A stretch of DNA of 64,000 nucleotides from Oscillospiraceae bacterium (GTDB lineage: Bacteria > Bacillota > Clostridia > Oscillospirales > Ruminococcaceae), in NCBI GenBank assembly GCA_031253495.1, contig JAIRWC010000002.1, forward strand, positions 29,308 to 93,307, read 5' to 3'. Both the position numbers and the translations under genes were made by a program. This document shows, in pieces, positions 16,006-51,225 of the stretch; within the stretch, counting starts at the first letter, position 1, and each line of letters starts with the position of its first letter. The notes under the pieces are model-generated. The model made no database searches. It had not been told where the DNA came from and worked only from the letters and a program-made list of their open reading frames with translations.

Positions 16006-17463
16006 ATGAACGTGGGCATCGATTTGGGAACCGCCAACACGGCGGTGGCTTACATATCCGGCGAAGGGAGCCTTGAGCTTCTTGATATGAAGGGCGGTTT
16101 TCTTCTTCCGTCTTGCGTTTACGCGGCCCAAAACACCGTCATAACGGGGGAGGACGCTTTAAGACGCGGCGGCGTAAACCCCGAAAATTTTGTTTCCTCC
16201 GCGAAAACCCGAATGGGGCGGCCGGAGAAGAGTTATGTCGCGGGGGCGCTGGCGCTTAACCCGACGGACGTCGCCCGCCTTGTCCTTGAAGCGGCGCTCA
16301 GGCGTCTGCGCGAGGTTTTTCCCGAAGAAAAAGAGTTCAACGCTTTCATAACCGTTCCCGCCTCGTTTGAAAGCGGGCAAAGAGCGGAAACGCGCAAGGC
16401 GCTCGTCGCGGCGGGGTTCAAAATCGGCGATAACTGCGTTATAGACGAACCCGTGGCGGCGGCAATCGCCTACGGTCCGCGATTGGGCGGCGGCAGGGTT
16501 TTGGTGATAGATTTCGGCGGGGGGACTCTTGACGTTTCTTTGGTTGAAATCGACCGTATGGGCTCGACGACCGACCCCTCCCGCGTAAAGGTTCTTAAAT
16601 CCGGCGGCGACCGCGGTCTTGGCGGCGACGATTTCGATAAAGCGATAGCCGGCGCGGTTTACAGGCACATCCGCGACGAAAGCCCCGCGCATACGGATTT
16701 GAGTTTCCCTTCGCGCTCGCAGCTTAAGTACGCGAAAAAAGTGGAAGCGCTTTCCCGCGAGGCGAAAGAGAGTTTATCCGCGGACGGTATTTTCGCCGCG
16801 AACATATACGACCATGACTTTTTCGAGGACGGCAGCTTCGAGCTTGACTTCGACATTACCTATGAGGAATACGCCGCGCTCGCTTCCGATTTGATAAACA
16901 GGGTTAAAGGGGCTGTGATGTCGCCGTTCGGCGGGGAATACCGACCCGACGGCACGGATAAGGTTCTGCTCGTCGGCGGAATGGCGGGGGAGCGGTTCCT
17001 GCGGGAGTTCGCCGCCGAAACGTTCGGCGGGGATAAAGTCGTGTTACCGCCGGACAGGATGTACCTCGTCGCGAAGGGGGCGGCAATCTGCAATTCCGAT
17101 TTGCCGGTTCAAGTGTCCAATAAATCGTTTACCTCCATCGGCGCGCTTTGCGTCAACGAAAAGGGCGAAGACGACATATTTTACTTCATCAAGGCGGGGG
17201 AAGACGTCGACCCCGGCAGGAAAGTTTCCCGTTTGTTCAAAACCGGCCGCGATTTCGCGACGGCTATGGTGGTTGAAATAGCGGAATTTGTTTCCGAGGA
17301 AAAGAAAACCGTTTCAAGGTTGGAATTAAGCGGATTGACCCCTGATTTCGCGGAAAATCAAACGGTGAGGATAACCTTTTCGGTTAGCGAGGATAAGTAT
17401 ATATCCGTTTCGGCCGAAGAAGTATCGACGGGCAGGGAAATTTCCTGTAATATACGATTGTAA
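16006..17463 (+). CDS. Hsp70 family (DnaK-like) protein without SBD-alpha lid
   Basis: MNVGIDLGTANTAVAYISGEG...FITVPASFESGQRAETRKALVAAGF...VIDEPVAAAIAYG...VLVIDFGGGTLDVSLVEI...GGDRGLGGDDFDKAI...VLLVGGMAGERFL; 486 aa, ends after a beta-rich region. Confidence 0.88.
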   Translation: MNVGIDLGTANTAVAYISGEGSLELLDMKGGFLLPSCVYAAQNTVITGEDALRRGGVNPENFVSSAKTRMGRPEKSYVAGALALNPTDVARLVLEAALRRLREVFPEEKEFNAFITVPASFESGQRAETRKALVAAGFKIGDNCVIDEPVAAAIAYGPRLGGGRVLVIDFGGGTLDVSLVEIDRMGSTTDPSRVKVLKSGGDRGLGGDDFDKAIAGAVYRHIRDESPAHTDLSFPSRSQLKYAKKVEALSREAKESLSADGIFAANIYDHDFFEDGSFELDFDITYEEYAALASDLINRVKGAVMSPFGGEYRPDGTDKVLLVGGMAGERFLREFAAETFGGDKVVLPPDRMYLVAKGAAICNSDLPVQVSNKSFTSIGALCVNEKGEDDIFYFIKAGEDVDPGRKVSRLFKTGRDFATAMVVEIAEFVSEEKKTVSRLELSGLTPDFAENQTVRITFSVSEDKYISVSAEEVSTGREISCNIRL

Positions 17464-17470
17464 GGGGAAA

Positions 17471-17549
17471 GGTTGAAAAATAAGAAAGAACGAATCACCA
17501 TGCCGCAATTTTCATTGGGTTTTGTGCAGGGTGAGGCGGCATGGTCATA
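17471..17549 (+). repeat. uORF/inverted-repeat element, copy 1 (~80 bp)
   Basis: ggttgaaaaataagaaagaacgaatcACCATGCCGCaattttcattgggttttgtgcagggtgagGCGGCATGGTcata; uORF 17500-17550 MPQFSLGFVQGEAAWS*. Confidence 0.9.
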
Positions 17550-17555
17550 AATATG

Positions 17556-19103
17556 AAATTAACCGAATGGGTAAGGGAACGGCGCGAGGAAAACGAGATA
17601 CTCGACGTATTTTTACAGATAACCCGGCTTTTGTCGGACGGCAAGGGGCAGGGTGCCGTTTCACCCGCTTTGTACGAGGTTGACGAGCTTAATAACGTCC
17701 TCTTTAACGGGAACGAAACCGATTTGCCGAACCCCGCCTCGGATTTCCGCGCGCCCGAAAACGGCAGGAACGGCGAAAAAAGCGACGTGTTCTCGCTGGG
17801 GATGTTACTGTATCTCCTGTTGAATAAAGAAACCTATTATCAAAGCAGGAACGTTTCGCCCGCCCTGTTGCTGAAGGCGCGCCGCAGAAGCCCGGGGTTT
17901 TCCATGATTAAATCCGAGGACGGCAGACCGGTATCCCTGCTCATGGAAAAGATGACGTCGGTCGACGCCGATGAGCGCCCTTCCCTGAAAGACATTCTCG
18001 CGGTTTTGAGCGGGTATGTCTGCCGTTTTTCGGTATTGCCGCAAAACATACAAACGGGCGAGGTTTTCGGTGAAATAACCCGCTCGTTCACAGGTTCGCA
18101 AAGTTATAAGTTCATGCCCGAAAGCCGCTACGTTATCGACGGCGTAACGCTGGCGCCCGTATCGCAAACGCCGCTCCTGATACCTTTCAGACTGGTGAGG
18201 AAGCAATACGCCTTGGAGGTCGTCTACGCGAAAGAGGGACGCTGGTCTTACGCGGTAAAAAAGCCCGACGCGCCGGAAGTTCCGCCCGCTTCGGAGGAAG
18301 CCTTTTCAATCGTTCCGAAAGCGACCGCCGCCCTGTACTATTGCGACGCCTTTTACGGCGCGCGCGACAGCACGCTTTTATGCGGGACCGACGGCTATTC
18401 GTTCGAGCTGGGTTATTCCGAGGGCGGCGGCAAAAACGTCAAAATAAGCAGGGAGGGAACCTTGGTCGCCCCCGAAAGGATAGGAACGCGCATACTTTCC
18501 ATGTTGAAGCAAACGGGAAAGGCGCCGGGCGAAATCTCACGCGTCGCCGTCTACGGTTACGGCGTGTTCCCCGCGAAAGGGGCGAACGCCGCCAAGGTTA
18601 TGCCGGCGGTAACGAAAACAATCAACGACATATTCCCGGAAGACGTCAACATCTGCAGTTTAAGCGGGGAAGATATTTTGAGGGGCGCGGCGCTTTACAT
18701 ATCGGATAACGGGATTGTCCCGGGGAAAGCGTCGGAATATGCCGAATACGATTACGGGATAACCGTAAGCGACCCCGTATCGCAAAGATACGCGTTTCAG
18801 ACGCTCATTCCGGCGGGAACGCCCGTTAAGGGGGGGGTTGAGGTCAAAACCGTCTTTCGCCCGTCCGCAAGCGATATAAGGAACGGAATATGCGCGGTCA
18901 TGCTGTTTAGGCGCGAAAAGGGGTTTGAACACGTGAACAGCACGCTTGAGCCCGACGGCGACAAAATCAAACTCGCAAAAAAGATAAAGGTTCCCCTGCC
19001 GTCTGAAATTACCTCGCCCCGCCCCGTCGAGTTAACGCTCAGAATGGACGAGACGGGCGGAATGGACGCCGAAGCGCGCGCCGCCTTTTCCGGCGAAGAG
19101 TAA
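17556..19103 (+). CDS. Hybrid protein: pseudokinase-like C-lobe fused to Hsp70-like C-terminal region
   Basis: MKLTEWVRERREEN...; FRAPENGRNGEKSDVFSLGMLLYLLL and LLMEKMTSVDADERPSLKDILAVL match kinase APE/alphaF/alphaH-I motifs; later ISRVAVYGYGVFP...ILRGAALYI...GITVSDPVSQRYAFQTLIPAGTPV resembles Hsp70 lobe II/SBD-beta. Start could also be the element's ATG at 17541 (MVINM). Confidence 0.6.
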   Translation, partial: KLTEWVRERREENEILDVFLQITRLLSDGKGQGAVSPALYEVDELNNVLFNGNETDLPNPASDFRAPENGRNGEKSDVFSLGMLLYLLLNKETYYQSRNVSPALLLKARRRSPGFSMIKSEDGRPVSLLMEKMTSVDADERPSLKDILAVLSGYVCRFSVLPQNIQTGEVFGEITRSFTGSQSYKFMPESRYVIDGVTLAPVSQTPLLIPFRLVRKQYALEVVYAKEGRWSYAVKKPDAPEVPPASEEAFSIVPKATAALYYCDAFYGARDSTLLCGTDGYSFELGYSEGGGKNVKISREGTLVAPERIGTRILSMLKQTGKAPGEISRVAVYGYGVFPAKGANAAKVMPAVTKTINDIFPEDVNICSLSGEDILRGAALYISDNGIVPGKASEYAEYDYGITVSDPVSQRYAFQTLIPAGTPVKGGVEVKTVFRPSASDIRNGICAVMLFRREKGFEHVNSTLEPDGDKIKLAKKIKVPLPSEITSPRPVELTLRMDETGGMDAEARAAFSGEE

Positions 19104-19107
19104 AAGT

Positions 19108-19680
19108 ATGAGCGGAATTTTAAAAATCGCCTTTTATGTAAGACAAACGAGGGTTTTAGGACCGTATAACCGATTCGCCCTGTGGGTTCAGGGCTGCGAA
19201 AGGAACTGCGCGGGCTGTATCGCGCGGAGCATGAAGGACAGGCGCGGCGGCGAGGCGGTTGAAATACCACGGTTAACCGATATAATTCTCTCGGTTAAGG
19301 GCGTAGAGGGGATTACGGTCAGCGGCGGCGAACCGTTCCTGCAGGCGGAAGGGCTGTCGGCTCTTATCAAGGCCGTCCGCGAGGAGCGCGATTTCGGCGT
19401 AATCGTTTACACCGGCTACGCGCTTTCCGAGTTGTCCGGCGCGCTGCTGAACGAAACCGACACGCTGATTGACGGCGAATACGTTGAATCGCTCGACGAC
19501 GACAAAGGCTTCAGGGGTTCGTCGAACCAAAACGTGGTTCATCTGACCGAAAGGTACGGGAACTGCGGTTATTACGACGGAAACGAAGGCAGGAAAACCG
19601 AATTTTTTATAAGCGGCGGCAAGCGGGTGATGGTCGGCGTCCCCTCCCGAAGCGCGAAGAAGTTATGGAGGAATTTATAA
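19108..19680 (+). CDS. radical SAM 4Fe-4S protein, NrdG-like
   Basis: FALWVQGCERNCAGCIARSMKDRRGG (CxxxCxxC) and GVEGITVSGGEPFLQAEGLSALIKAV (GGEP). Confidence 0.88.
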   Translation: MSGILKIAFYVRQTRVLGPYNRFALWVQGCERNCAGCIARSMKDRRGGEAVEIPRLTDIILSVKGVEGITVSGGEPFLQAEGLSALIKAVREERDFGVIVYTGYALSELSGALLNETDTLIDGEYVESLDDDKGFRGSSNQNVVHLTERYGNCGYYDGNEGRKTEFFISGGKRVMVGVPSRSAKKLWRNL

Positions 19681-19683
19681 CGC

Positions 19684-20346
19684 ATGATTTTAGACAAAAG
19701 CGACTTCATAAAAATCGAAAACATTAAAACGGGGGACGACCCGCTTGATATTTGGGTGATTCAAGGCGGCGGAACGCGCGCTTTCAATCCCGACGACAAC
19801 TACGGGAGCTTTGATATTTTTATGGCCGACGGCTGCCTTTACATAAGGCACGACGGCTCGGACGAGGAAATGGGCGTTTATTTCGACAGCCCCGCGGTTT
19901 CAGACGCGATAGGCACTTTCGGGATAGTCGAATTGCTTGACGACAATTCTTTCGCCGATAAGGGCAGGTACGTCTTTCCGAGGGGGAAAAACCGCATAAT
20001 ACTGAAAAAAGCCGACGGGGGGATTTTGCTCGGATTTTCGGAGTACCGCCCGAACGCCCAAAGCACCCCGAACGCCCAAAGCGCCCCGATTACGCAAGAC
20101 AAAGAAATTCCCGCCGACAATCCGGAAAACGGCTTCGACGGCGATATAAAAAAAAGGCTGGAGAATTTAAAAGGCGACATAAAAGCGGATATCGGCATCC
20201 TCGGCGGAATAGACGGCGGCCGGTCGGCTATGGTCGCCGAAAGGCTTTCCGAATTGGAGGAAATAGCGGGGTTGCTGGAGAACGCCATGGCCGAACTGGT
20301 GGAGCGCAGGAACAAAACCATATCGGAGCATTTAAGCAATGGCTGA
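19684..20346 (+). CDS. uncharacterised protein with C-terminal coiled coil
   Basis: 220-aa ORF in operon, 3-nt gap from the upstream gene; overlaps the next gene by 8 nt; contains an 18-bp tandem duplication (NAQSTP/NAQSAP) at about 20049-20084. Confidence 0.75.
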   Translation: MILDKSDFIKIENIKTGDDPLDIWVIQGGGTRAFNPDDNYGSFDIFMADGCLYIRHDGSDEEMGVYFDSPAVSDAIGTFGIVELLDDNSFADKGRYVFPRGKNRIILKKADGGILLGFSEYRPNAQSTPNAQSAPITQDKEIPADNPENGFDGDIKKRLENLKGDIKADIGILGGIDGGRSAMVAERLSELEEIAGLLENAMAELVERRNKTISEHLSNG

Positions 20347-21622
20347 AATCAAGCGGTTGGAATCCGAGTTAAAAAAACTGCGGCGCGAGCTTGACGAATA
20401 CCGCGACGTTTCCAAAAAGCGGCTGAATTTGCTGGAAAGCGGCAATATTGCGGTAGCCGGCGACATAAAGACGGGGAACGGGTTTCAAGAACCGGGGTTC
20501 GGCGAAGAAGAGGCAAAGACCGAAATTCGGCGGCGAATGTCGGATATCAAGCAAAAATATTCCGCGCTGGAATCGGAATTAAAACGGCTTTACGAAGACG
20601 AGTCGCGTGAAAACGCCCTCGCGGTCGCGCGGGTCAGGGAAGACGCCCGCGCCTTGGCGGAAGAGCGCGAGCGCGAGCGCGTCCGGGCGGAGAACGCGCT
20701 GAACGATATTTTGGATTATTGCGACGCGATAAGCGGCAAATACCCTTTCGAAGAATTCGCGCCGGGCGCGGCGGCGCGTTATAAGAGCGGCGCGGAAGAA
20801 TTGAAGGGATTCTATAAGAACGGCTTATACCAATCGGTAATCGGCGCGGCGGCGGGGTTAAGGCTTCGGATTGATTTGGACGCGGAAGAAATTTCGCGGT
20901 TGAGCGAGCGGCATAAATCCTATTCCGACGTTCTTTTGGAAAACGCCCGGGAACTTGAGACGGTTATCGCGGAAATAAAGACGGTCGAAGGGTTAAGCGG
21001 CGCGTTTTACGAGGACGAGGGGCGGGCGTTCGCGGGCGCGGATTTGGATTATTGGACGGGCGGCGTTTATTCCGGGGTTTTGGGCGAAACGCGTGAAATC
21101 CTTGATTCCGTAAAATCAAGCAAACCCGAAAGCACCGCCGGCGTCTACCAAAAAAGCGAAATCCTGCGTAAGAACGCCGCCGAACTTTCAAAGGCGCGGG
21201 ATGATTTTATAAGCGCGGTAAAAGCCTATGACGAGCGGATGTATATAATCGCCCCCGACGTCGAAAGGGTTATGAACTCGCTGGGGTACGAATGCGAGGA
21301 CTGGTATTTTTTCCGCGACGGCGAAAACGGCGAAAAATCGGCGGGCAAGAAAGACGCTTTCAGAATGGTTTTCGGGGCGTTCGCCGTCGATATATTCCCG
21401 ATATTCAACAAAGCGGCCTCGCGGTACGAAAATCATATCGGGATTGAGGTTGACGAGGGAATTTACGGCGCGAACGCGGGTTCGGTCGCCGAATCGGTGA
21501 AAAAAGCCGTTAAGGGCGTTTTCAAGGGCAAGGTAATCGCCGATTACGCCGAAGAAACGTCGGCGGCGGAGAAGACGCGGGCGGTTCTTGTCAGGGCGGT
21601 TAACGGCGGGGGTGCGGTATGA
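20339..21622 (+). CDS. uncharacterised coiled-coil protein
   Basis: 427-aa Glu/Lys/Arg-rich ORF, overlaps neighbours at both ends. Confidence 0.75.
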   Translation: MAEIKRLESELKKLRRELDEYRDVSKKRLNLLESGNIAVAGDIKTGNGFQEPGFGEEEAKTEIRRRMSDIKQKYSALESELKRLYEDESRENALAVARVREDARALAEERERERVRAENALNDILDYCDAISGKYPFEEFAPGAAARYKSGAEELKGFYKNGLYQSVIGAAAGLRLRIDLDAEEISRLSERHKSYSDVLLENARELETVIAEIKTVEGLSGAFYEDEGRAFAGADLDYWTGGVYSGVLGETREILDSVKSSKPESTAGVYQKSEILRKNAAELSKARDDFISAVKAYDERMYIIAPDVERVMNSLGYECEDWYFFRDGENGEKSAGKKDAFRMVFGAFAVDIFPIFNKAASRYENHIGIEVDEGIYGANAGSVAESVKKAVKGVFKGKVIADYAEETSAAEKTRAVLVRAVNGGGAV

Positions 21623-23082
21623 GCGGTGAAATGAGGGGCGGTATATATTCGCTCGGCGCGGTGAGGTTGGCGCGTCTGTCGGGCGAGTTGGTCCTCGCTT
21701 TGCTGAAAGCGGACGGCGCTTCGGCGAAGGCGCTCGGCAAGTCTGTTTTAAACCTCGGAAAAGAGCGTAAGGAGCGCAGGCGCGGCAATCTTGACTTTGA
21801 AATAGCCGCCGAAGCCGCGAAGCTGTGGATTGTCGCAAACGAGGAAAGCCGCAGGATAAACGCGGTTATCGAGGAAATACAGGCGGAAAAACAAAAGCGG
21901 ACGTCCGCCGTTCGCGCGGAATTGAAAGACGACGGCGACCGTTTCGCTTACATGAAAGAACTGGGCAAATCGCGGGAAAAAATCAATATTTTCATAGCCG
22001 AAAAAGCCGAGGAAATTTCACGCGGGTTTATCGGGAAAATGAACGCCGAAGCGGATAAATTCAAATATAAAACAAGCGTTTGGCGGGAGGAACTGCTGTC
22101 CGAAGCAAAAAAACTGTCGGGCGATATCGCCGGGCGGGACGCTTTCGTTAAAGACGCCGCCGAAAAAACAATCGCGAAAGCGCGGATGTTTTGCGCCGAT
22201 TTGGAAAAACGCTACGGTTTCGCCGAACGCGGTTTATTGGAAGAACACCTTTGTTCGGCCGAGCGGCTGTTGGGTTCGGGGAACCGCGAGGCGGCGATAA
22301 TCGCGGCATTTGACGCGGTTAACGAAGCGGCTTCGCTGATTGCGCGGACGGAGGCGCGGTTAGCCCTTCCGGAGGCGATGTACGCGCTGTGCGTGAGTTC
22401 TCTGGCGGAATGTCGGGAATTATTAACCTCGGGGCGGAGTTTCGAGGTTAAAAACTCGCCGATAACAACCGCCGAAAAAATCGGCGGGGAAAGCGAAATT
22501 TACGATATTGACCTGGCGGAATTTACGGGGGACGAATACGGGCGGCTTACCGACAGAGTGAAAATGTTCGCCGAGCGGCTGGAAAAACCCGTTTACGCGT
22601 TCGCCGACGGGGAATTGGACGATATACGCTCGGGCATAGACGAACTGTACCGGGAAATCAACGGAATGCTGTTAAAAGGGATTGAATTGGTCAACAACGC
22701 GTTCTTGCGCGATTATATGCGCGAATGTGTCGCCGACGCGCTGGAAGGGTGCGGCTTGCGCGAGGAGGACGCCGGAGAGGAAGAAACCCCGAACGCGAGC
22801 GCGCAAAGGTTCGTCAACCCGAATACGGGCGAGGAAATAAGCGTTATGTTCGCCTCGCGGTTTGACGAACGCGACGCCTTGCAAACCGAAATGCGGGTGT
22901 TCGGCGAAGCGAAGGATTACGGAACCGCCGAATGTGGGCGCAGGTTAGACAAATACCGCGTTCGGATTCTGGAAAAAATGGGGAGCGACGAAACGCTTCG
23001 CGGCGAGGGCATGGAAGCGGAACTTCGTTGCGCGGAAGAAACGGGGAACCGAAACAGGCTGAGCGTAAGGGAAATGTCATGA
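21619..23082 (+). CDS. uncharacterised coiled-coil/helical protein
   Basis: 487-aa ORF; ATGA overlaps at both start and stop. Confidence 0.75.
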   Translation: MSGEMRGGIYSLGAVRLARLSGELVLALLKADGASAKALGKSVLNLGKERKERRRGNLDFEIAAEAAKLWIVANEESRRINAVIEEIQAEKQKRTSAVRAELKDDGDRFAYMKELGKSREKINIFIAEKAEEISRGFIGKMNAEADKFKYKTSVWREELLSEAKKLSGDIAGRDAFVKDAAEKTIAKARMFCADLEKRYGFAERGLLEEHLCSAERLLGSGNREAAIIAAFDAVNEAASLIARTEARLALPEAMYALCVSSLAECRELLTSGRSFEVKNSPITTAEKIGGESEIYDIDLAEFTGDEYGRLTDRVKMFAERLEKPVYAFADGELDDIRSGIDELYREINGMLLKGIELVNNAFLRDYMRECVADALEGCGLREEDAGEEETPNASAQRFVNPNTGEEISVMFASRFDERDALQTEMRVFGEAKDYGTAECGRRLDKYRVRILEKMGSDETLRGEGMEAELRCAEETGNRNRLSVREMS

Positions 23083-25754
23083 ATTCCATATTTGAACTGT
23101 CGTCAACGAGAATGTTCTGCATAATAGGCAATCTGCGCGACGTTTACTGTACGCGGGATTTAAAGCTGCTCGGTTTCGAGGAACTGTTGAGCGGTTATCT
23201 GCGTGACCGCGGCTTCGACGCGGTAATATTCTTTTCGGGGGCGCTCGGCAGGCTGAAAACCGTCGATAAGGCGAGCCGCGATTTTCTTAACGGCAAGGCG
23301 GCGAAATCCGCGAAAAAGGCGGGAATGAGCAAATTCAAACGCGCCGGCGAACCGCGGGGGGCGGGCGGCGACGACGGCGACCGCGACGGGAAACTTCCTT
23401 ACGAGCGCGCGGGATTGGAGGACAGTCTGGCCGTCGCCGAATTGAACCGTTTTATGACTCAGACCGAAAAGCGCGTCGCCGTTATTTTCACCAGTCTCGA
23501 CGATTTTGTGAACAAGACCTCGCCCGAAAACAGGCGGGTGTTCAACGCCTGTTTCGACGACTGGAAAAGTCTCGGCACGGAAAACCGCAACATATGCGTG
23601 TTCTTGTCGAAAAACCTTGACGCGGGGAACATTCAGCAGATTTTTACGGCGCGCGGCGAAATGTCAATGGCGTCGCTTTTCGTAAGCGAGAACGCCGGCG
23701 CGGGCGCGAGCTTCAATAAAAATTCCTGCTTGATTGTGCGTAACCCGCGCAACGACGAAATCGCTTCCTTGCTGGAATATCTGCGCGTCGTCGGGATAAG
23801 GCGCGTTTCATCGGGGAAAGAGACCCGCGTAAGGCTGACCTTTAACCGTTTTGATTTTGAAACGTTAACCCGCGAAACGGCTTTTTACGGCAGGGAGTCG
23901 GATATAACCGACCTAAAGCCAATCAAGGAAAAATTCGAGAAATACATGGCGTCGTCGGAAGGGGACAAGGTTTTTGTCGACCCGAAAATATTAAGGCGCG
24001 AGTTGTTCCCCGAGTGTGCCGGCGACTATAACCGCGACGACCCCATGGAACTGCTGAAAACCACCCGGGGGTGGGAAACGGCGGCGCGCGCCCTGGAACA
24101 GGCGCTGACGGCAATCCCGAAACCCGAGGAAAACGAGGCCGCGCAACCCGCCGCCGGCAATTCGGAGTTTTTTGTTCAGCGTCTCGGAACAAGGCGGGAA
24201 ACAGGAGGGGAAGCCCCCGTCCCGAACTTCGTTTTGCAAGGACCGCCCGGCGTGGGTAAAAGCGAGATTGCGGGCTTGATAGGGAGGATACTGTCCGGGC
24301 GGGGCATACTTAAATCGGGGCATACCGTCGTCGCGAACCGTTCCGGTCTTGTGGGGCAGTATGTGGGTTCGTCGGCGATTAACACCGCGAACATGATTGA
24401 ACAGGCGCAGGAAGGCGTTTTGTTAATCGACGAGGTGTATTCGCTCGTCAACAAAGGCGGCGGCTCGTCTTCCGGCGAGAATTACTGCGCCGAAGTGTTC
24501 AACACGCTCGTCGCGGCGATGACGGACAAATCCAAGCGCTTTTGCGTAATCTTCTCCGGTTACGAATCGAAAATGGACGACGTGTGGCAAATGAACGAGG
24601 GGCTGTATTCGCGGTTCGGCGAAGGCAACGTAATCGACCTTGACGATTTTCCGCCGCCCGTTCTCATGGAAATATTCGCGGCCGATATAAAAAAATCGGG
24701 GATAAGCCTTGACGGCGAGGTCGCGCGCGACTTGCCGGTATTCTTTCAAAATTACTACAACGACAGGGACAGGCTGAAATTCGCCAACGCCCGCGACATA
24801 AAGAACTTGGCGAGAACGGTTATACGGGCGGCTTTCGCGAGGAGCGGCGGCCGCGTTTCGGAATGTACCGTTACCAAAGCCGATTTCGGGAGATATGAAA
24901 AGAGTTTTATAAAACGCGGCTCTTTTGATGAAAACGACGTTTACAGGCAGTTGAGGCGGTATACGGGGCTGGGTTTTTTAGAAGAAATGTTCGACGACCA
25001 AAGCGCGCTTTTTCAAGAATGTGCCGACAAAAAGCTGCCTTATCCCGGTCCCATACACATGATATGGTGCGGCAATCCCGGAACCGGAAAATCCACGGCG
25101 GCGAAACTCACGGCGGAACTGTACCATTTCCACGGAATACTCGGGGGAACCAACCCCGTTTACGTCGACGCGGGAACCCTGCTCGGCCAGTATGTGGGTC
25201 AGGCGCAGCAGTTAATCAACGAGAAAATGGACGAGGCGGTGCGGCACAATACGGTGCTGGTAATCGAAGAGGCGTATCAGCTCCTGCCCGAGAACTGCTC
25301 TTTCGGGCGGAGCGTGGTAAACGCCATGCTTAACCGCATGGAGGAAGACCGCCCCCGTTTCAACGTGATATTCATACTGTACGGGGAATATTACGACGCG
25401 TTTTTGAAAATCAACCCGGGTCTTGAATCGCGGACGGCCACCTATTGGTTTCCGGACTACACGTCGCCGCAACTGCGGAAAATCCTGCGGAAAATGCTCG
25501 GCGACGGCGGCGACGCGATAACCGCGCCCGCTTACAGAAAAGCGGCGCTTAAGCTCCGCGAACTTTACAAGAGCGGGGATTCAAGAAAAGGCAACGCGAG
25601 GATTGTGCGGAAAATGCTCGAGGATATGCGGCAAAAACGGTTCAAACGCATGCGGGCGGAAAAAAGCGGCGACAAGTATTTGTTTGTCGAAAGCGACGTC
25701 GCGGTCGAAAAATACGTCCCGAAAAAGCAGTTGACGGTATTCAGTTTAAATTAG
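23079..25754 (+). CDS. AAA ATPase with degenerate N-terminal module and two CbxX/SpoVK-like AAA modules
   Basis: AAA-1: GPPGVGKSEIAGLIGRIL, GVLLIDEVYSLV; AAA-2: GNPGTGKSTAAKLTAELY, TVLVIEEAYQLL; N-terminal region has Walker-B-like RVAVIFTSLDDF but no P-loop. True start MNSIFELSS at 23079 (ATGA overlap); the ORF-track start at 22932 is upstream. Confidence 0.85.
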   Translation: MNSIFELSSTRMFCIIGNLRDVYCTRDLKLLGFEELLSGYLRDRGFDAVIFFSGALGRLKTVDKASRDFLNGKAAKSAKKAGMSKFKRAGEPRGAGGDDGDRDGKLPYERAGLEDSLAVAELNRFMTQTEKRVAVIFTSLDDFVNKTSPENRRVFNACFDDWKSLGTENRNICVFLSKNLDAGNIQQIFTARGEMSMASLFVSENAGAGASFNKNSCLIVRNPRNDEIASLLEYLRVVGIRRVSSGKETRVRLTFNRFDFETLTRETAFYGRESDITDLKPIKEKFEKYMASSEGDKVFVDPKILRRELFPECAGDYNRDDPMELLKTTRGWETAARALEQALTAIPKPEENEAAQPAAGNSEFFVQRLGTRRETGGEAPVPNFVLQGPPGVGKSEIAGLIGRILSGRGILKSGHTVVANRSGLVGQYVGSSAINTANMIEQAQEGVLLIDEVYSLVNKGGGSSSGENYCAEVFNTLVAAMTDKSKRFCVIFSGYESKMDDVWQMNEGLYSRFGEGNVIDLDDFPPPVLMEIFAADIKKSGISLDGEVARDLPVFFQNYYNDRDRLKFANARDIKNLARTVIRAAFARSGGRVSECTVTKADFGRYEKSFIKRGSFDENDVYRQLRRYTGLGFLEEMFDDQSALFQECADKKLPYPGPIHMIWCGNPGTGKSTAAKLTAELYHFHGILGGTNPVYVDAGTLLGQYVGQAQQLINEKMDEAVRHNTVLVIEEAYQLLPENCSFGRSVVNAMLNRMEEDRPRFNVIFILYGEYYDAFLKINPGLESRTATYWFPDYTSPQLRKILRKMLGDGGDAITAPAYRKAALKLRELYKSGDSRKGNARIVRKMLEDMRQKRFKRMRAEKSGDKYLFVESDVAVEKYVPKKQLTVFSLN

Positions 25755-25771
25755 ACATACGGGGGTGGATT

Positions 25772-26728
25772 ATGAAATACGGCGTTTTTATGCGGACCAG
25801 AACCTACGGCGGGGATTACACATGGATTAACAAGCCCGATTATATGCCCGCCGACATCTACAAAACCTGCCAGAGTATAATCGCGTTAAGGGAAAAGCAG
25901 ACCTTCGACGCCTTAAGCGAAGAGGACTGGTACGGGAACTTTTTCTATATCAAAGCGGGCGGGTGCTGTATGCTGGCGAGAATGGCGAAAACCAAGTATT
26001 CCGATTCATACGGGAGGAGCATATTTTCGTTCGAGGGCGTTTCGGTTAAGAGCGAAAACGAAAAACGGTTCTTCCTCGACATACCGAATTTGATTAACGC
26101 CATGCTCCCCCCGACGAAGAGTTTCCGCGCGCGCTTTGAGGAGGAGGAGAGCGTTCCGGACGTTTTCACGGCGGAGTCGCCCATAAACCCGTTAAGGAGC
26201 GCGTCTGTCCCTCGCGAGGTTCACCCCGCCGTGAAAAACAACGCGGCGTTCAAAAATTTGATGAACTTCATAGCTTATTCGGAAGCTCCGTCGGGGTTTA
26301 TATTCGGCGCCCGCGCGAAGGATTTTTCAAGCTACGTCAATAAAACCGCGCTGGGGATAAAAAACATTTTTGATTACGAGCGCCCCGAACCCGCGTCGGT
26401 TCGGGAAAACGCTTTCGCGGAAAAATACAGGCCCGTTTCCTGCGATTATAAAAAACCCGCCGCGACGGGCACGGAAAAAACGGCGGTCTATATCGTCGTC
26501 CGCGAAAGAGGGAGAGAGGTTTACGAATACTGCTGGCAGGTGTGTTCCCTTGAAAACGGCGGGGCGAAATTCACGACAAAGTATTATCAGGTGAACGACA
26601 GGCTTTTGCTGCCCGCCCTGGAACTGCAAAAGGAAAGCATTGTGAACTTTCTGGTTGAAAGCGGTTGGAAAAAGCAGCAATACGGGCTTAGATTCGAGAA
26701 GGAAACGTTCGCGCGGGAGGGAAAATAA
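25772..26728 (+). CDS. uncharacterised protein
   Basis: 318-aa ORF MKYGVFMRTRTYGGDYTWINKPDY... in operon. Confidence 0.7.
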   Translation: MKYGVFMRTRTYGGDYTWINKPDYMPADIYKTCQSIIALREKQTFDALSEEDWYGNFFYIKAGGCCMLARMAKTKYSDSYGRSIFSFEGVSVKSENEKRFFLDIPNLINAMLPPTKSFRARFEEEESVPDVFTAESPINPLRSASVPREVHPAVKNNAAFKNLMNFIAYSEAPSGFIFGARAKDFSSYVNKTALGIKNIFDYERPEPASVRENAFAEKYRPVSCDYKKPAATGTEKTAVYIVVRERGREVYEYCWQVCSLENGGAKFTTKYYQVNDRLLLPALELQKESIVNFLVESGWKKQQYGLRFEKETFAREGK

Positions 26729-26729
26729 C

Positions 26730-28766
26730 ATGAGCTTCGATATTAACCGCGAGATAATTTACTTTAAGTATTCGCCGCAAAAATCAGTCTCCGCCGCCTC
26801 AAAAGAACCGGAATACGAAGGGTTGGATTTGTACGCGATTTCACGCCCGGAAGGGATTGACGAAGCGGACTTCGCCACCCTGCTCAACTTTTTCCGCCGT
26901 ATCGACGGCGAGTATAAATTCGACGGCGCAAGATACGCGAACGAAACGCTCACAAGCAACAACCTGCATTTCTTCTGTTTGAACAGCGGGGCGGCGATGT
27001 TCAAAATAACGGAAAGCGCGGGGACGCCGGGGAACGGGCAGGCGGAGCTTTTCGGCTTTTTTATCGCGCTTTCCGACGTAAGGACGGCGTGGCTTTATAT
27101 CGATAAGCTCTGTTATATGCTCGCGGGGGAAGAACCCGGAAAAGCCCAAAGCGGAACGATTGAGGAAGACATGGTTTCAGGGTTGGACGCGAACTCGGTT
27201 AAGGAACTGCCGCCCGTGTTCAGGTCGTCGCTCATGGAACTGGCGGGGCGTTTGGCGGTTGTTAATTTTCCGGAAAGTTTCGCGCTGACTTGTCTGCCGG
27301 AAAGTTTTTTCCCCGACGGCGTAAAGGTGTACGAAAACGGTTTTATGCCGGTGAAAACCGACGGCTCGGCTAAAGAAAAAACGATTGAATTTGACGACGC
27401 TTTGCTGGCGAGATTATCCGGCGAGTGTAAGGAGCCGCTTAAAAGCGCGGTCATAATAAGCGTTTCAAACGACGACGAGGAAAACGTCGCGGAGGTAAAA
27501 AAAGGCGGATTTTTCGGCAAATTCAAAAAAAATCAGCAGTCTCAGCGGGAGGTTAAGGCGGTTAATCAGTGGCGGTATGATTTTATCAGCAATTTACAGC
27601 GTCAAAGCGAAAATTGCGATTTTATACGCTTGAACGCCCCCGTCGAATATTCCCCGATAATGGATACGTTCAAGGCGTACGTCGGAATTGTCCCGGGTTC
27701 AAAAGAGGACAAGCTGATTCCGGTTTCAAAAATACCGAGCGCGAATATATTCATCCCCGGAGCGAGGCGGAGACCGTCCGTCGCGTCTATGGAAGCGCCG
27801 CCGTCCGTCGCGTCTATGGAAGCGCCGCCGCCCGTCGCGTCTATGGAAGCGCCGCCGTCCGTCGCGCCGATGGAAGCGCCGCCGTCCGTCGCGCCGATGG
27901 AAACGCCGCCGTCCGTCGCGCCGAAGAAAGAGGCGAAACCGTCCGTTACGCCCATGAAAGCGGGGAGAAAGCCGTCCGCCGTTTCCGAGACCGTACCGCC
28001 CTCCCATTCACCGAAAGCGGCGGTTATAGATATGGTGGCGACGGGTTCGTCGCCGTCCGCGAATACGGCGTCGCCGTCCCATTCGCCGAACGCGCTGTCG
28101 CTGGATATGACGCCGCGCGGGAAAAGCGCGTGGGACAGCGAGCCCGAAACGCGCTACGGCAGTTTGGTCGTGAGCGGCGCGAACGAACTTTACGGAGACG
28201 ACGGGGAACCGACCCGCCCGAAATTCGGGCGGTCGCAGATTGACAAGTCGGCGGTGGAGGATATGATGCCGCACTCCATTTACATGAACTCCCCGAAAGC
28301 CGCCCCGGTCAAACCGCCGGTTACGCCGCCGCCGCCGCCGATTTTTGAAGTTAAGCCGATTGTGGAAGAGGACGAATCCGACGACGACGACGTCGCTCCC
28401 GCTATCGAGATTGCGCCGTTTGTCCAAGAACCCGAACCCGCGACCGCGTCGCCGCCGTTTGTCCAAGAACCCGAACCCGCGACCGCGTCGCCGTTTGTCC
28501 GGGAACCCGAAGCGCCGCCCGTTTTGGAGACCGTGCCGGCTTACCCGTCCGAATGGGAGATAAAGCCGATGACGAACCCTTCGTCTTTGCCGCCTCCGCC
28601 GGTTCCGGTAACAATCGCGCCGTCTTCCGTTTGGAACGCTTCTTCGGCGGAAACCGAAGAAGACGGGGAAACGTCGGGCGAAATGGAGGCGGTTACGTTG
28701 AAGCCCAAATCGTCGGGTAATTCCGTCATGGATTTGTATTATCAGAATTTAAAGAACAAGAAATAA
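26730..28766 (+). CDS. uncharacterised protein with N-terminal globular region and Pro-rich tandem repeats
   Basis: MSFDINREIIYFKYSPQKSVSAASKEPEYEGLDLYAISRPEGIDEADF...; ATG 26730, 1 nt after the upstream stop. Confidence 0.7.
   Translation: MSFDINREIIYFKYSPQKSVSAASKEPEYEGLDLYAISRPEGIDEADFATLLNFFRRIDGEYKFDGARYANETLTSNNLHFFCLNSGAAMFKITESAGTPGNGQAELFGFFIALSDVRTAWLYIDKLCYMLAGEEPGKAQSGTIEEDMVSGLDANSVKELPPVFRSSLMELAGRLAVVNFPESFALTCLPESFFPDGVKVYENGFMPVKTDGSAKEKTIEFDDALLARLSGECKEPLKSAVIISVSNDDEENVAEVKKGGFFGKFKKNQQSQREVKAVNQWRYDFISNLQRQSENCDFIRLNAPVEYSPIMDTFKAYVGIVPGSKEDKLIPVSKIPSANIFIPGARRRPSVASMEAPPSVASMEAPPPVASMEAPPSVAPMEAPPSVAPMETPPSVAPKKEAKPSVTPMKAGRKPSAVSETVPPSHSPKAAVIDMVATGSSPSANTASPSHSPNALSLDMTPRGKSAWDSEPETRYGSLVVSGANELYGDDGEPTRPKFGRSQIDKSAVEDMMPHSIYMNSPKAAPVKPPVTPPPPPIFEVKPIVEEDESDDDDVAPAIEIAPFVQEPEPATASPPFVQEPEPATASPFVREPEAPPVLETVPAYPSEWEIKPMTNPSSLPPPPVPVTIAPSSVWNASSAETEEDGETSGEMEAVTLKPKSSGNSVMDLYYQNLKNKK
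27774..27935 (+). repeat. 27-bp in-frame tandem repeat (PSVASMEAP type), five full units plus a partial one
   Basis: ccgtccgtcgcgtctatggaagcgccg repeated; translation PSVASMEAP PSVASMEAP PPVASMEAP PSVAPMEAP PSVAPMETP PSVAPKKEA. Confidence 0.9.
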
Positions 28767-46598: not shown

Positions 46599-47654
46599 AT
46601 GAGCGAACGAGGCTTTAAAATCCTTGAAGCAATCATAGACGAGTACATTCGCACGGGCGAACCCATAGGTTCTAAGTTCCTTGCCGAAAGGCTCTGTTTT
46701 CCGGTGTCGTCCGCCACCGTGCGTAACGAAATGGCTTCCCTCGAACAGCAGGGCTATCTCGACCACCCGCACACTTCGGCGGGGAGAATCCCCACCGTCA
46801 AGGGCTATCGGCTCTATATAGAAAGGCTCGCCCTGGAAAATCCCGAAAAGCGGCCGCTTTTGTCGGACGAGGACAAATACGTCATAGATTCGGCTCTGGA
46901 GGGCGTGAACGCGGATTCCGACGAGGTGATTATCGAAAGCGCGTCCCGCGCGCTTGCGGAACTTACGAAGTGCGCGGTGGTTTCCACAAGCAACTTAAGC
47001 CGTTTTTCGGTGATAACAAAGGTGGAGGTCATACCCACGGGGAAAAGGATGTACGTTCTTTTGCTCATCACTTCGGGGGGGAATATCAAGAACCGCGTCT
47101 GCCGCCTGTCTTTCGATTTAACGCACGAACAGCTTGATTTTTTCACCAAGTTCGCGAATGAAAACCTCGCGGGGCAAAATCCGGAAAACATTTCCGAGGA
47201 ATACATCAAAAAGATTGGTTCGGCGCTCGGGAGCTATATGATTTCGCTGTCGCCGCTGCTGAAAGCCGTCGCCGACCTGTCGGGGGAAATGACCGGCAGC
47301 CGCGTTAATTTCGAAGGGGAATCCAATCTAATCGCCTTTGAGGATTTCCGAAAAAACGAGATACTTTCAATCTTGGAAAGCCGCGACGCGTTTACGGGGC
47401 TTTTGGATAACGCCTTTTCGGGGATAAGCGTGTTGTTCGGCGGAGAAAGCGAAGGGAGAGGCGACACTTTCGCGGTGTCCAATTCGGGGCTGATAGCCGG
47501 CAGCTTTTTAAAGCACGGGAAAACGGCGGGCAGCTTCGGCGTTATCGGACCCATGAGGCTTGATTATAAAAAGCTGATACCCTATATAGAATATTTCGCC
47601 GTCAAGGTAACGGGCTTGCTGTCGGAGGACGACGAGGAAGAAGGAGGTGGCTGA
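46599..47654 (+). CDS. hrcA: heat-inducible transcription repressor HrcA
   Basis: RGFKILEAIIDEYIRTGEPIGSKFLAERLCFPVSSATVRNEMASLEQQGYLDHPHTSAGRIPTVKGYRLYIE. Confidence 0.96.
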   Translation: MSERGFKILEAIIDEYIRTGEPIGSKFLAERLCFPVSSATVRNEMASLEQQGYLDHPHTSAGRIPTVKGYRLYIERLALENPEKRPLLSDEDKYVIDSALEGVNADSDEVIIESASRALAELTKCAVVSTSNLSRFSVITKVEVIPTGKRMYVLLLITSGGNIKNRVCRLSFDLTHEQLDFFTKFANENLAGQNPENISEEYIKKIGSALGSYMISLSPLLKAVADLSGEMTGSRVNFEGESNLIAFEDFRKNEILSILESRDAFTGLLDNAFSGISVLFGGESEGRGDTFAVSNSGLIAGSFLKHGKTAGSFGVIGPMRLDYKKLIPYIEYFAVKVTGLLSEDDEEEGGG

Positions 47655-47657
47655 GAA

Positions 47658-48182
47658 TTGGGCAAAAAAAGCGAAAACGCGAAAAACCCGCGTTCGGACG
47701 TTCCCGAAGACCAAACGCTGGAAAGCTCCCCGCCCGAGGTTGGGGGCGAAGGGAACGCCGAACCCCAAGCCGACGAATTATCGCGGCTGAAAGACCAACT
47801 GCTCCGCCAAGCCGCGGAATACGACAATTACCGTAAGCGCACCGCCAAAGAACGCATGGAGCTGGTTCCCGGGGCAATCGCGAAGACCGTCGCGGAGTTT
47901 CTGCCGGTCATCGACAACATCGAAAGGGCGTTCGCCGCGGAATGTTCCGACGCGAATTATAAAAAAGGCATTGAAATGATTTACGCGAGTTTTCTCGAAA
48001 CGCTGAAAAATTTGGGCGTGGAGGAAATTGTCGAGGAGGATTTCAACCCCGCCGTTCATCAGGCGGTTCAACACGTGGAAAGCGAGGATTTGGAAAGCGG
48101 AAAGGTGGCGCGGATTTTTCAAAAGGGATACAAAATCGGGAACAGGGTCATACGGTTCGCCATGGTGGCGATAGTTAAATGA
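47658..48182 (+). CDS. grpE: nucleotide exchange factor GrpE
   Basis: [49 protein letters not shown]...[42 protein letters not shown] start with GGAGGT SD. Confidence 0.95.
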
Positions 48183-48201
48183 AAGAAAGGGGACTGACAC
48201 A

Positions 48202-50019
48202 ATGGCAAAAATTATAGGGATTGATTTGGGAACGACAAATTCGTGCGTTTCCGTAATAGAGGGCGGCGAGGCCGTCGTCATCGCCAACGCGGAAGGTTCG
48301 CGCACCACGCCCTCAATCGTGGCTTTCACGAAAGACGGGGAAAGGTTGGTGGGGCAGTTAGCCAAAAATCAGGCGGTTACCAACCCCGATAAGACGATTA
48401 TCTCGATTAAAAGGAAAATGGGTTCCGACCACAAGGTAAACATCGACGGGAAGAAATACACCCCGCAGGAAATTTCCGCCATGATTTTGCAAAAGCTGAA
48501 AGCCGACGCCGAAGCCTATCTTAACGACAAGGTTACGGACGCGGTCATTACCGTCCCGGCGTATTTTACGGACTCGCAAAGGCAGGCGACGAAAGACGCG
48601 GGGCAAATCGCGGGTATGAACGTCAAGCGGATTATCAACGAGCCGACGGCGGCGGCTTTGGCTTACGGGATAGACAAGGGCGAAGAGCAGAATATCGTCG
48701 TTTACGACCTCGGCGGCGGCACGTTCGACGTTTCGGTGATTGAAATGGGCGACGGCATACAAAAGGTGCTGGCGACGGCGGGGAACAACCATTTGGGCGG
48801 CGACGACTTCGACCAGCGTATTATCGAGTATCTGACGGCGGAATTTAAAAAGTCCGACGGCATCGACTTGACGAAAGACAAATTCGCCATGCAAAGGCTT
48901 AAGGATGAGGCGGAAAAAGCGAAAATCACCCTTTCCGGCTCCGCTTCCGTGGATATCAATATCCCTTATATAACCGCCGACTCTTCCGGTCCGCGCCATT
49001 TGCAGGTTCCGCTCACCCGGGCGAAGTTCAACGAGTTGACCGCCGATTTGGTGGAAAAAACCATGGGACCGCTCAAGCAGGCGCTTAAGGACAGCGGGCT
49101 TTCCCAAAGCGATATAAGCAAGGTGCTTTTGGTGGGCGGCTCGACGAGAATCCCCGCGGTTCAAGACGCGGTCAAGAATTACCTCGGGAAAGAGCCGTTC
49201 AAGGGCATTAACCCGGACGAGTGCGTGGCAATGGGCGCGGCTTTGCAAGGCGGCGTGCTTAACAAAGAGGTTACGAATTTACTCTTGCTCGACGTTACCC
49301 CGCTTTCCCTCGGCATCGAAACGGCGGGCGGCGTATGCACGCGCATGATTGAGCGCAACACCACAATCCCCACCAAAAAGGCGCAGGTTTTCTCAACCTA
49401 TTCGGATAATCAGCCCAGCGTTGACATTAACGTGCTTCAAGGCGAGCGCGAATTTGCGAAGGACAACAAATCCATCGGCAATTTCCGGCTTGACGGAATA
49501 GCGCCCGCGCCCCGCGGAATCCCGCAAATCGAGGTTACGTTCGATATAGACGCGAACGGTATAGTAAACGTTTCCGCCATGGATAAAGGCACGGGAAAAT
49601 CGCAGCATATTTCGATAACCGCGTCCACCAATATGAGCAAGGACGATATCGACAAGGCGGTTAAGGAAGCGGAGGCGTTCGCGGAGGAGGACAAGAAGCG
49701 CAAGGAAGAGGTCGAGGCGCGCAACGACGCCGACCAGGCGGTTTATCAGATTGAAAAGTCGATAAGCGATTTCGGGGATAAGATTACCGGCGACGACAAA
49801 TCGAGGTTAGAACCCAAAATCAACGAGCTGAAAGAAGCGTTAAAGGGGGATAATATCGACAAAATCAAATCGTTGAAGGAAGAACTGATGAAAGAGGCGC
49901 AGACGGTTTTCGGGAGGATTTACCAAGAACAGGCGTCGCAGGGCGCGCCGGACGGCGAACCCGCCGAGCCCGGCGTTTCCGGCGGCGACAACGTCGTGGA
50001 CGCCGATTTTACGGAATAA
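48202..50019 (+). CDS. dnaK: molecular chaperone DnaK
   Basis: [62 protein letters not shown]... Confidence 0.98.
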
Positions 50020-50025
50020 CGACCA

Positions 50026-50052
50026 TTCCCCCTGCCCGAACGGCAGGGGGAA
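50026..50052. other. dnaK-dnaJ intergenic hairpin (TTCCCCCTGCC-CGAAC-GGCAGGGGGAA)
   Basis: Perfect 11-bp stem, 5-nt loop, no U tract. Confidence 0.75.
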
Positions 50053-50067
50053 TAAACGGAGACGATT

Positions 50068-51225
50068 ATGGCAGATAAGCGCGATTATTACGAAGTCCTC
50101 GGATTACGCAAAGGCGCGTCCGACGACGAAATAAAAAAGGCGTACAGGAACTTGGCCAAAAAGTATCATCCCGATTTAAACCCCGACGACCCGAAATCCG
50201 CCGAAGCGAAATTTAAAGAAGTCAACGAGGCGAACGACGTGTTGTCCGACCCCGAAAAGCGTAAACGCTACGACCAATTCGGGCACGCGGGGGTGGACCC
50301 GTCATACGGCGGCGGAGGAGGCGGAGGTTTCGGGGGCTTTGGGGGGTTCGGCGGGTTTGACGGGGGAATCGACCTCGGCGATATATTCGACTCGCTTTTC
50401 GGGGGGAACGGCAGAAGGGGCGCCAACCCCAACGCGCCCCGTCAGGGCGGCGATATTTCCATGTCGTTGAACCTTGATTTTATGGAAGCCTGCAAAGGGC
50501 TCAAGCGGGAAGTCGACGTTTCCCGGCATGAGGTCTGCGATGTTTGCAACGGCTCCGGCGCCAAGCCCGGAACCGCGCCCAAAACCTGCTCCGAGTGCAA
50601 CGGAAACGGCAAAATCCATTATCAGCAACGCTCGATGTTCGGCATGATTCAAAACACCAAAACCTGCCCGAACTGCGGAGGCAGGGGAAAAATTATCGAA
50701 CAGGGCTGTTCGGGGTGCGCGGGGCACGGGCGCGTTCAAAAAAAGCGCAAAATCCCCGTGAATATTCCCGCCGGGATTGACGACGGGCAGATTTTGAGCG
50801 TTCGCGGGGAGGGGAACGTCGGCGCGAACGGCGGCGGAAAAGGCGACCTCAACATAAGAATAAACGTGAAACGCGACCCTTTATTCGAGAGGAACGGTTT
50901 TGACGTTAACTGTGAAGTTCCGCTTACTTACGCGCAGGCGGCCTTGGGCGCGGAGGTGGAGGTTCCGACCATTGACGGCCCCGTTAAGCTGACGGTTCCG
51001 GAGGGGACGCAGCCCGACACGGTTTTCAGGCTGAAAGGGAAAGGCGTCCGGCATCTCAAACGGGAAGGCAGGGGCGACGAGCTTGTAAAGGTCGTAATCG
51101 AGGTTCCGAAAAACCTTACGAAAAGCCAAAAAGACCTGCTTCGCCGGCTTGACGGCGAGTTGACAAGCAAGAATTTCGCGAAGAGGGAGAGCTTTTTTGA
51201 AAAGCTGAAAAAGGCGTTCGGATGA
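50068..51225 (+). CDS. dnaJ: molecular chaperone DnaJ
   Basis: [38 protein letters not shown]...; Gly-rich region; four CxxCxGxG-type zinc motifs. Confidence 0.97.

Follow-up and report, generated by a model that had tools for sequence, protein, structure and literature searches.

An operon with two Hsp70-related genes

An Hsp70 gene followed by a gene that appears to join part of a protein kinase to part of another Hsp70 raises the question of what the second product, protein B, is kept for. The window, i.e., the whole stretch of 64,000 nucleotides of Oscillospiraceae DNA analyzed here, contains this pair in an operon together with genes for a radical SAM protein, a tandem AAA+ ATPase and five further proteins (Table 1). 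The distance from the Hsp70A stop to the ATG at 17541 of the B gene is 77 bases. A motif scan found intact nucleotide-binding domain (NBD) motifs in Hsp70A (IDLGTAN, DFGGGTLD, and LLVGGM) and two Walker A motifs in the tandem AAA+ ATPase. The radical SAM protein also matched TIGR02491 (6.8e-26), under the cut-off. An HrcA-GrpE-DnaK-DnaJ heat-shock operon of the ordinary type lies at 46599–51225 of the window, and thus the operon of Hsp70A and B is additional to the housekeeping DnaK.

Table 1. Features of the operon and of protein B, in window coordinates.
Feature	Coordinates	Strand	Remarks
Hsp70A	16006–17463	+	485 aa; Pfam HSP70 8.5e-48; short C-terminus
Protein B	17541–19103	+	Kinase C-lobe, beta domain, degenerate Hsp70 IIA and Hsp70-derived tail
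B, kinase C-lobe-like domain	17553–18011	+	Residues 1–153, alpha-E onward; Pfam, Foldseek, motifs
B, all-beta linker domain	18018–18227	+	Residues 156–225; AlphaFold; conserved in relatives
B, degenerate Hsp70/ASKHA subdomain IIA	18318–18707	+	Residues 256–385; AlphaFold, Foldseek, hhalign
B, tail	18708–19100	+	Residues 386–516; homologous to the post-NBD (SBD-position) tail of the G074 Hsp70
Radical SAM activase-like protein (NrdG-like)	19108–19680	+	Fer4_12 1.4e-29; CxxxCxxC present
Protein D	19684–20346	+	Positional equivalents after the radical SAM gene in G074, G088, G023, G090
Protein E, probably coiled-coil	20339–21622	+	Matches in G074, G023, G090
Protein F, probably coiled-coil	21619–23082	+	Matches in G074, G088, G023, G090
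Tandem CbbX/SpoVK-like AAA+ ATPase	23076–25754	+	TIGR02881 2.8e-71, two stretches; AAA 2.3e-30
Protein H	25772–26728	+	Same 10/71 genus genomes as B
Protein I	26727–28766	+	C-terminal half proline-rich

Proteins B, D, E, F, H, and I had no match in PHROGs. Neither H nor I matched Pfam GAP1, though both may be divergent forms, and a GAP1 identity for H was set aside for want of Pfam support. The proline-rich region of protein I (26727–28766) carries a run of near-identical APPSVASME-type repeats.

Protein B begins with the C-lobe of a dead kinase

Protein B measures 520 aa from the ATG at 17541 and 516 aa from the ATG at 17553, with the ORF ending at 19103. The second ATG is the start common to B and its relatives (MKLTEW / MRLAEW), and residues are numbered from it. 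An earlier note on this DNA had placed the start at 17556, one codon late. The AlphaFold model of B was built from nine sequences and had a mean pLDDT of 70; values were mostly 80–90 in the kinase lobe and mostly 83–91 over residues 156–215 of the all-beta linker.

The Pfam Pkinase profile matched residues 67–153 with its positions 161–258 (E 4.1e-5, under the Pfam gathering score). Pkinase matches were found in eight of the nine B family members (best E 4.2e-7), and Foldseek of the AlphaFold model returned protein kinases, KSR and MLKL among them, with a probability of 1.00 across about 165 columns, which together place the kinase match well beyond chance. The motif scan located APE at residue 67 and the alpha-F motif DVFSLG at residue 78, so that B has the APE plus alpha-F D-x-[WFY]-S-x-G combination taken to mark the C-lobe of a eukaryotic-like kinase fold. 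Neither HRD nor DFG was found by the same scan. The N-lobe, with its Gly-rich loop and VAIK lysine, is absent, as the protein starts at alpha-E and the Pfam match covers the later profile positions only. With the N-lobe and the catalytic motifs missing, the lobe is predicted to be incapable of phosphorylation. These results agree with the earlier note, which had recognized the APE and alpha-F regions and the lack of catalytic kinase motifs and had proposed the AlphaFold and Foldseek check that returned kinases.

The C-terminal half of B derives from an Hsp70

The decisive comparison for the rest of B was with its counterpart in the congener G074, a protein of 800 aa in which the same N-terminal domain is followed by an HSP70 domain (Pfam E 1.1e-29). 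Aligned by hhalign, B residues 1–149 paired with 1–167 of the G074 protein (E 8e-9) and B residues 347–471 with 597–726 (E 8e-8); the tails are about 31% identical. The G074 protein itself combines an N-lobe-less, catalytically dead kinase C-lobe with an Hsp70 in which the nucleotide motifs are still visible.

Independently of G074, hhalign against an Hsp70 set aligned the stretch VAVYGYG...ILRGAALYI of B with the end of Hsp70 lobe IIA (E 0.0026). In the AlphaFold model, strands and helices of residues 256–385 follow the order b1-b2-b3-a-b4-a-b5-a of the ASKHA core. The best PDB fold match of the C-terminal half alone was the Hsp70 Ssz1 (E 3e-4), with DnaK and other ASKHA proteins slightly lower. 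Ssz1 acts as a partner subunit and has a complete NBD and SBD-beta, whereas B retains only IIA and the tail, plus the kinase lobe. Since the global superposition on Hsp70 was poor (TM 0.27, rmsd about 17), the fold evidence alone is moderate. Pfam did not call HSP70 in B, and a PDB sequence search with the C-terminal half gave no useful match. At the level of sequence, the Hsp70 assignment is nevertheless confirmed, mainly by the G074 relative together with the topology, and the sequence evidence is stronger than the fold evidence.

The motif scan matched none of the three nucleotide motifs (phosphate-1, phosphate-2, and adenosine) in B and all three in Hsp70A. The adenosine position of B reads VAVYG and the phosphate-2 position reads LLCGTDGYSFELGY, which MAFFT aligned at the phosphate-2 motif LVLDIGGGTTDICML of the G074 protein; this middle part of the alignment is inferred and is not significant by hhalign alone. 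Lobe I and the IIB region are missing from B in the MAFFT alignment, and lobe I was likewise not aligned by hhalign against the G074 protein. Having lost lobe I, IIB and the phosphate-2 motif, B should neither bind nor hydrolyze ATP in the manner of an Hsp70.

In the tail, strands were predicted at low pLDDT (about 26–60 over residues 390–474, mostly below 60–70). Of the degenerate B proteins, only those of the window and G081 have the tail, which is absent from seven reduced loci; a search beside the reduced genes and in the window for hidden traces of tail or lobe I sequence found none. The architecture claimed in the earlier note, a dead kinase fold joined to a partial Hsp70, is thus borne out by profile, fold and relative, and so is its lobe-II-like stretch. 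Its SBD-beta-like end stands as a homologue of the SBD-position tail of G074, with the SBD-beta fold itself unconfirmed at this pLDDT.

Related loci and their distribution

The count of genus genomes carrying both B and H includes the G074 fusion as a B; H was found in none of the other 391 genomes of the class-wide sample. A contig search with B alone as the query gave no relatives, and an alignment-based B query gave eight loci. With the G074 fusion as the query in 292 class genomes, the result was swamped by DnaK, and the N-terminal 255 aa of the G074 protein had no match in 298 order genomes, a set from which the positive control was absent. The named copies of the B locus are labeled as Oscillospiraceae MAGs, with isolate names that may point to termite guts.

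The fullest operon is that of G074 (Hsp70A, kinase-Hsp70, radical SAM, D, E, F, tandem AAA+, DO-GTPase2, H, and I). Its order is that of the window, with a probable membrane protein, the DO-GTPase2 and a GTPase-like protein added between the AAA+ gene and H and I; a tblastn search of the window with the G074 GTPases gave no match at E 0.1. In G081, Hsp70A, B, radical SAM, E, F, and AAA+ (about 65–86% identity) are spread over several contigs, with H and I on a separate contig, apart from this module. Seven further congeners have a tail-less B, then H, then an I-like gene, mostly after polC; in G006 the contig ends after H, and the ORF that takes the place of I in G067 is not matched to it by BLAST. 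A core of radical SAM, D–F and a triple AAA+ is present in G088, G023, and G090, with no Hsp70 in view.

Several neighboring arrangements were seen alongside. In G023, a TerD-like gene lies directly upstream of the radical SAM-D-E-F-AAA+ cluster (L056, 3496–4086). A variant module in G410 has one Hsp70 and a tandem AAA+ with a C-terminal trypsin-like peptidase (Trypsin_2 6.8e-22; L106, 10423–13755). In G300 (L089, 4324–16803), three Hsp70 genes come after a TerD/TerC/vWA cluster, two of them side by side and the third one ORF further on.

Orthologues of Hsp70A were seen in three genomes only, those of the window, G081 and G074 (35%). The only Hsp70 proteins of the seven reduced genomes are DnaK and a separate Hsp70 of about 500 aa, with no orthologue of the Hsp70A, radical SAM protein or AAA+ ATPase of the window; because several of these genomes are incomplete, absences are provisional. 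The separate Hsp70 occurs at 72–86% identity in exactly the nine genomes with a degenerate B, and at 44–45% in two others. One copy is at G000:C15 (L124, 6655–8151, minus strand), with equivalents in L125, L126, and L127; a flotillin-like gene is near it in L125–L127, and a conserved protein of about 500 aa adjoins it in all four.

Origin of protein B

We tentatively read B as the remnant of a fusion of a kinase lobe with a complete Hsp70, derived by erosion and retained as a non-catalytic adaptor, and give this reading somewhat less than an even chance. Gene fusion at module insertion, suggested at first by the tail-less B of the reduced loci, gave way to the erosion reading in the light of the G074 protein.

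Alternatively, the G000/G081 lineage could have regained the module (Hsp70A, radical SAM to AAA+, and the B tail) via recombination at B, which would make the B of the window a secondary chimera. The H tree joins this lineage to the reduced genome G020 (81/84 support), and H and I of G081 are on a different contig from the module. However, the B tree does not resolve, gene order and tail identity to G074 fit vertical descent equally well, and base composition is uniform along the window operon. The trees do not decide between a single regain of the module and its loss on two occasions; overall, we consider a regain rather unlikely.

A probable binding role for protein B

Returning to the eroded adaptor, no catalytic or nucleotide motif is left in B, so it would work by binding, most likely as a nucleotide-free scaffold or adaptor. 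The kinase lobe and the beta domain would dock one partner, most likely the constant neighbors H and I. The Hsp70 remnant and the tail would dock a second partner, in the window Hsp70A or a client of Hsp70A, in a way comparable to Ssz1 as the partner subunit of the ribosome-associated complex. The persistence of B in genomes that lack Hsp70A makes H and I the likelier core partners, and in the window a docking of B to Hsp70A is a plausible but secondary interaction. Since seven genomes keep B and H without Hsp70A, radical SAM or AAA+, the conserved role of B need not involve any of the three. The other Hsp70 of about 500 aa, present in all nine genomes with a degenerate B, could be a partner, or its co-occurrence may simply mark a subclade.

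The operon as a whole (Hsp70A, radical SAM activase, D–F, and tandem AAA+) would then constitute an ATP-driven assembly or remodelling machine with a role, by analogy, plausibly in stress or conflict response. The company of Hsp70A, radical SAM and AAA+ in the operon, the DO-GTPase2 of the G074 version and the trypsin-AAA+ fusion of the G410 variant count in favor of this overall reading. PADLOC gave no strong match to a defense family; its weak matches were to common kinase, AAA or coiled-coil types, such as mad6 (2.9e-7), which matched the kinase stretch.

The earlier note had proposed that B could scaffold or regulate the upstream Hsp70. In a specific form of this proposal, B would serve Hsp70A, for instance in nucleotide exchange or as its partner subunit. 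The two genes are adjacent and collinear in the window, G081 and G074, and the Hsp70 remnant of B resembles a partner-type Hsp70, Ssz1. H is present in every genome with B, but the Hsp70A orthologue is missing in seven of the nine genomes with a degenerate B, which weakens the proposal to the point that we find it unlikely. The dead kinase and partial Hsp70 of that note hold; the remnant status of B and the fuller operon with GTPases and AAA+ lay beyond its view.

A chance or convergent resemblance of the Hsp70-like half, leaving the kinase lobe alone as real, is very improbable: the absence of a Pfam HSP70 call and the low TM-scores of the C-terminal half would suit it, but both ends of B are collinear with a protein whose HSP70 domain Pfam does recognize, and the topology and the list of fold matches are rich in ASKHA features. 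That B is a decaying gene without function is barely credible: domains and motifs have indeed been lost progressively across relatives, but an intact ORF is kept in several genomes and dN/dS between the window and G081 was 0.14–0.22 in every segment measured, the tail among them, which rules out a pseudogene and indicates that all parts are kept.

Comparison with known systems

The nearest described systems are the GTPase/Hsp70/AAA+ conflict systems and Type III-A CoCoNuT, and defining parts of both, searched for with Pfam and tblastn, were not found in the window. GTPase-centric conflict systems with HSP70 (Kaur, Burroughs, Iyer & Aravind 2020, eLife, PMC7159879) share the chaperone/NTPase machinery and, in the operon version of G074, the DO-GTPase2. 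Some GAP1-N2 loci have a second, reduced HSP70, and the related MoxR-vWA systems commonly contain kinase domains that are inactive (PMC7159879). In contrast to these systems, the window has no DO-GTPase, its operon genes encode no Pfam-recognized GAP1, GASH, GrpE or FNIII protein, and its kinase lobe lacks the N-lobe and is fused to Hsp70. A radical SAM gene and a tandem CbbX/SpoVK AAA+ were not found described in that paper.

Type III-A CoCoNuT (eLife 2024, PMC11090510) includes CnuD, an Hsp70-like protein with a degenerate ATPase, coiled coils and a TerY-P Ser/Thr kinase, and one extension has a tandem AAA+ of the SpoVK type. Unlike it, the window operon has no Pfam McrB-like GTPase, McrC, HEPN RNase, vWA or PP2C; more broadly, no Pfam domain for TerY-P/CoCoNuT parts (vWA, PP2C, STK-zinc ribbon, and McrB/McrC) was found in the genes from 16006 to 28766. 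Bacterial Ser/Thr pseudokinases such as EssB, MviN, and DYD use the kinase fold for binding, without catalysis (PMC12599244); B differs from them in lacking the whole N-lobe. Searched by term, that review mentions neither Hsp nor domain fusion. A bacterial fusion of a kinase lobe with Hsp70 was not found in the literature searched, which covered few subscription journals.

It is possible, if on balance doubtful, that the locus belongs to an undescribed ATP-driven system of Oscillospirales in which a nucleotide-free pseudokinase/pseudo-Hsp70 adaptor links a dedicated Hsp70, a CbbX/SpoVK-type AAA+ remodeller and a radical SAM activase, and that in this lineage the adaptor outlived the machine and acts alone with H and I. 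No description of the operon (Hsp70, radical SAM, coiled-coil proteins, and tandem AAA+, in some versions joined by a DO-GTPase, TerD or trypsin domain) was found in the literature searched. Protein B itself is a clear case of two dead enzymes in one polypeptide, and because forms from the fusion to the stripped adaptor are available in one genus, the role of each domain can be tested.
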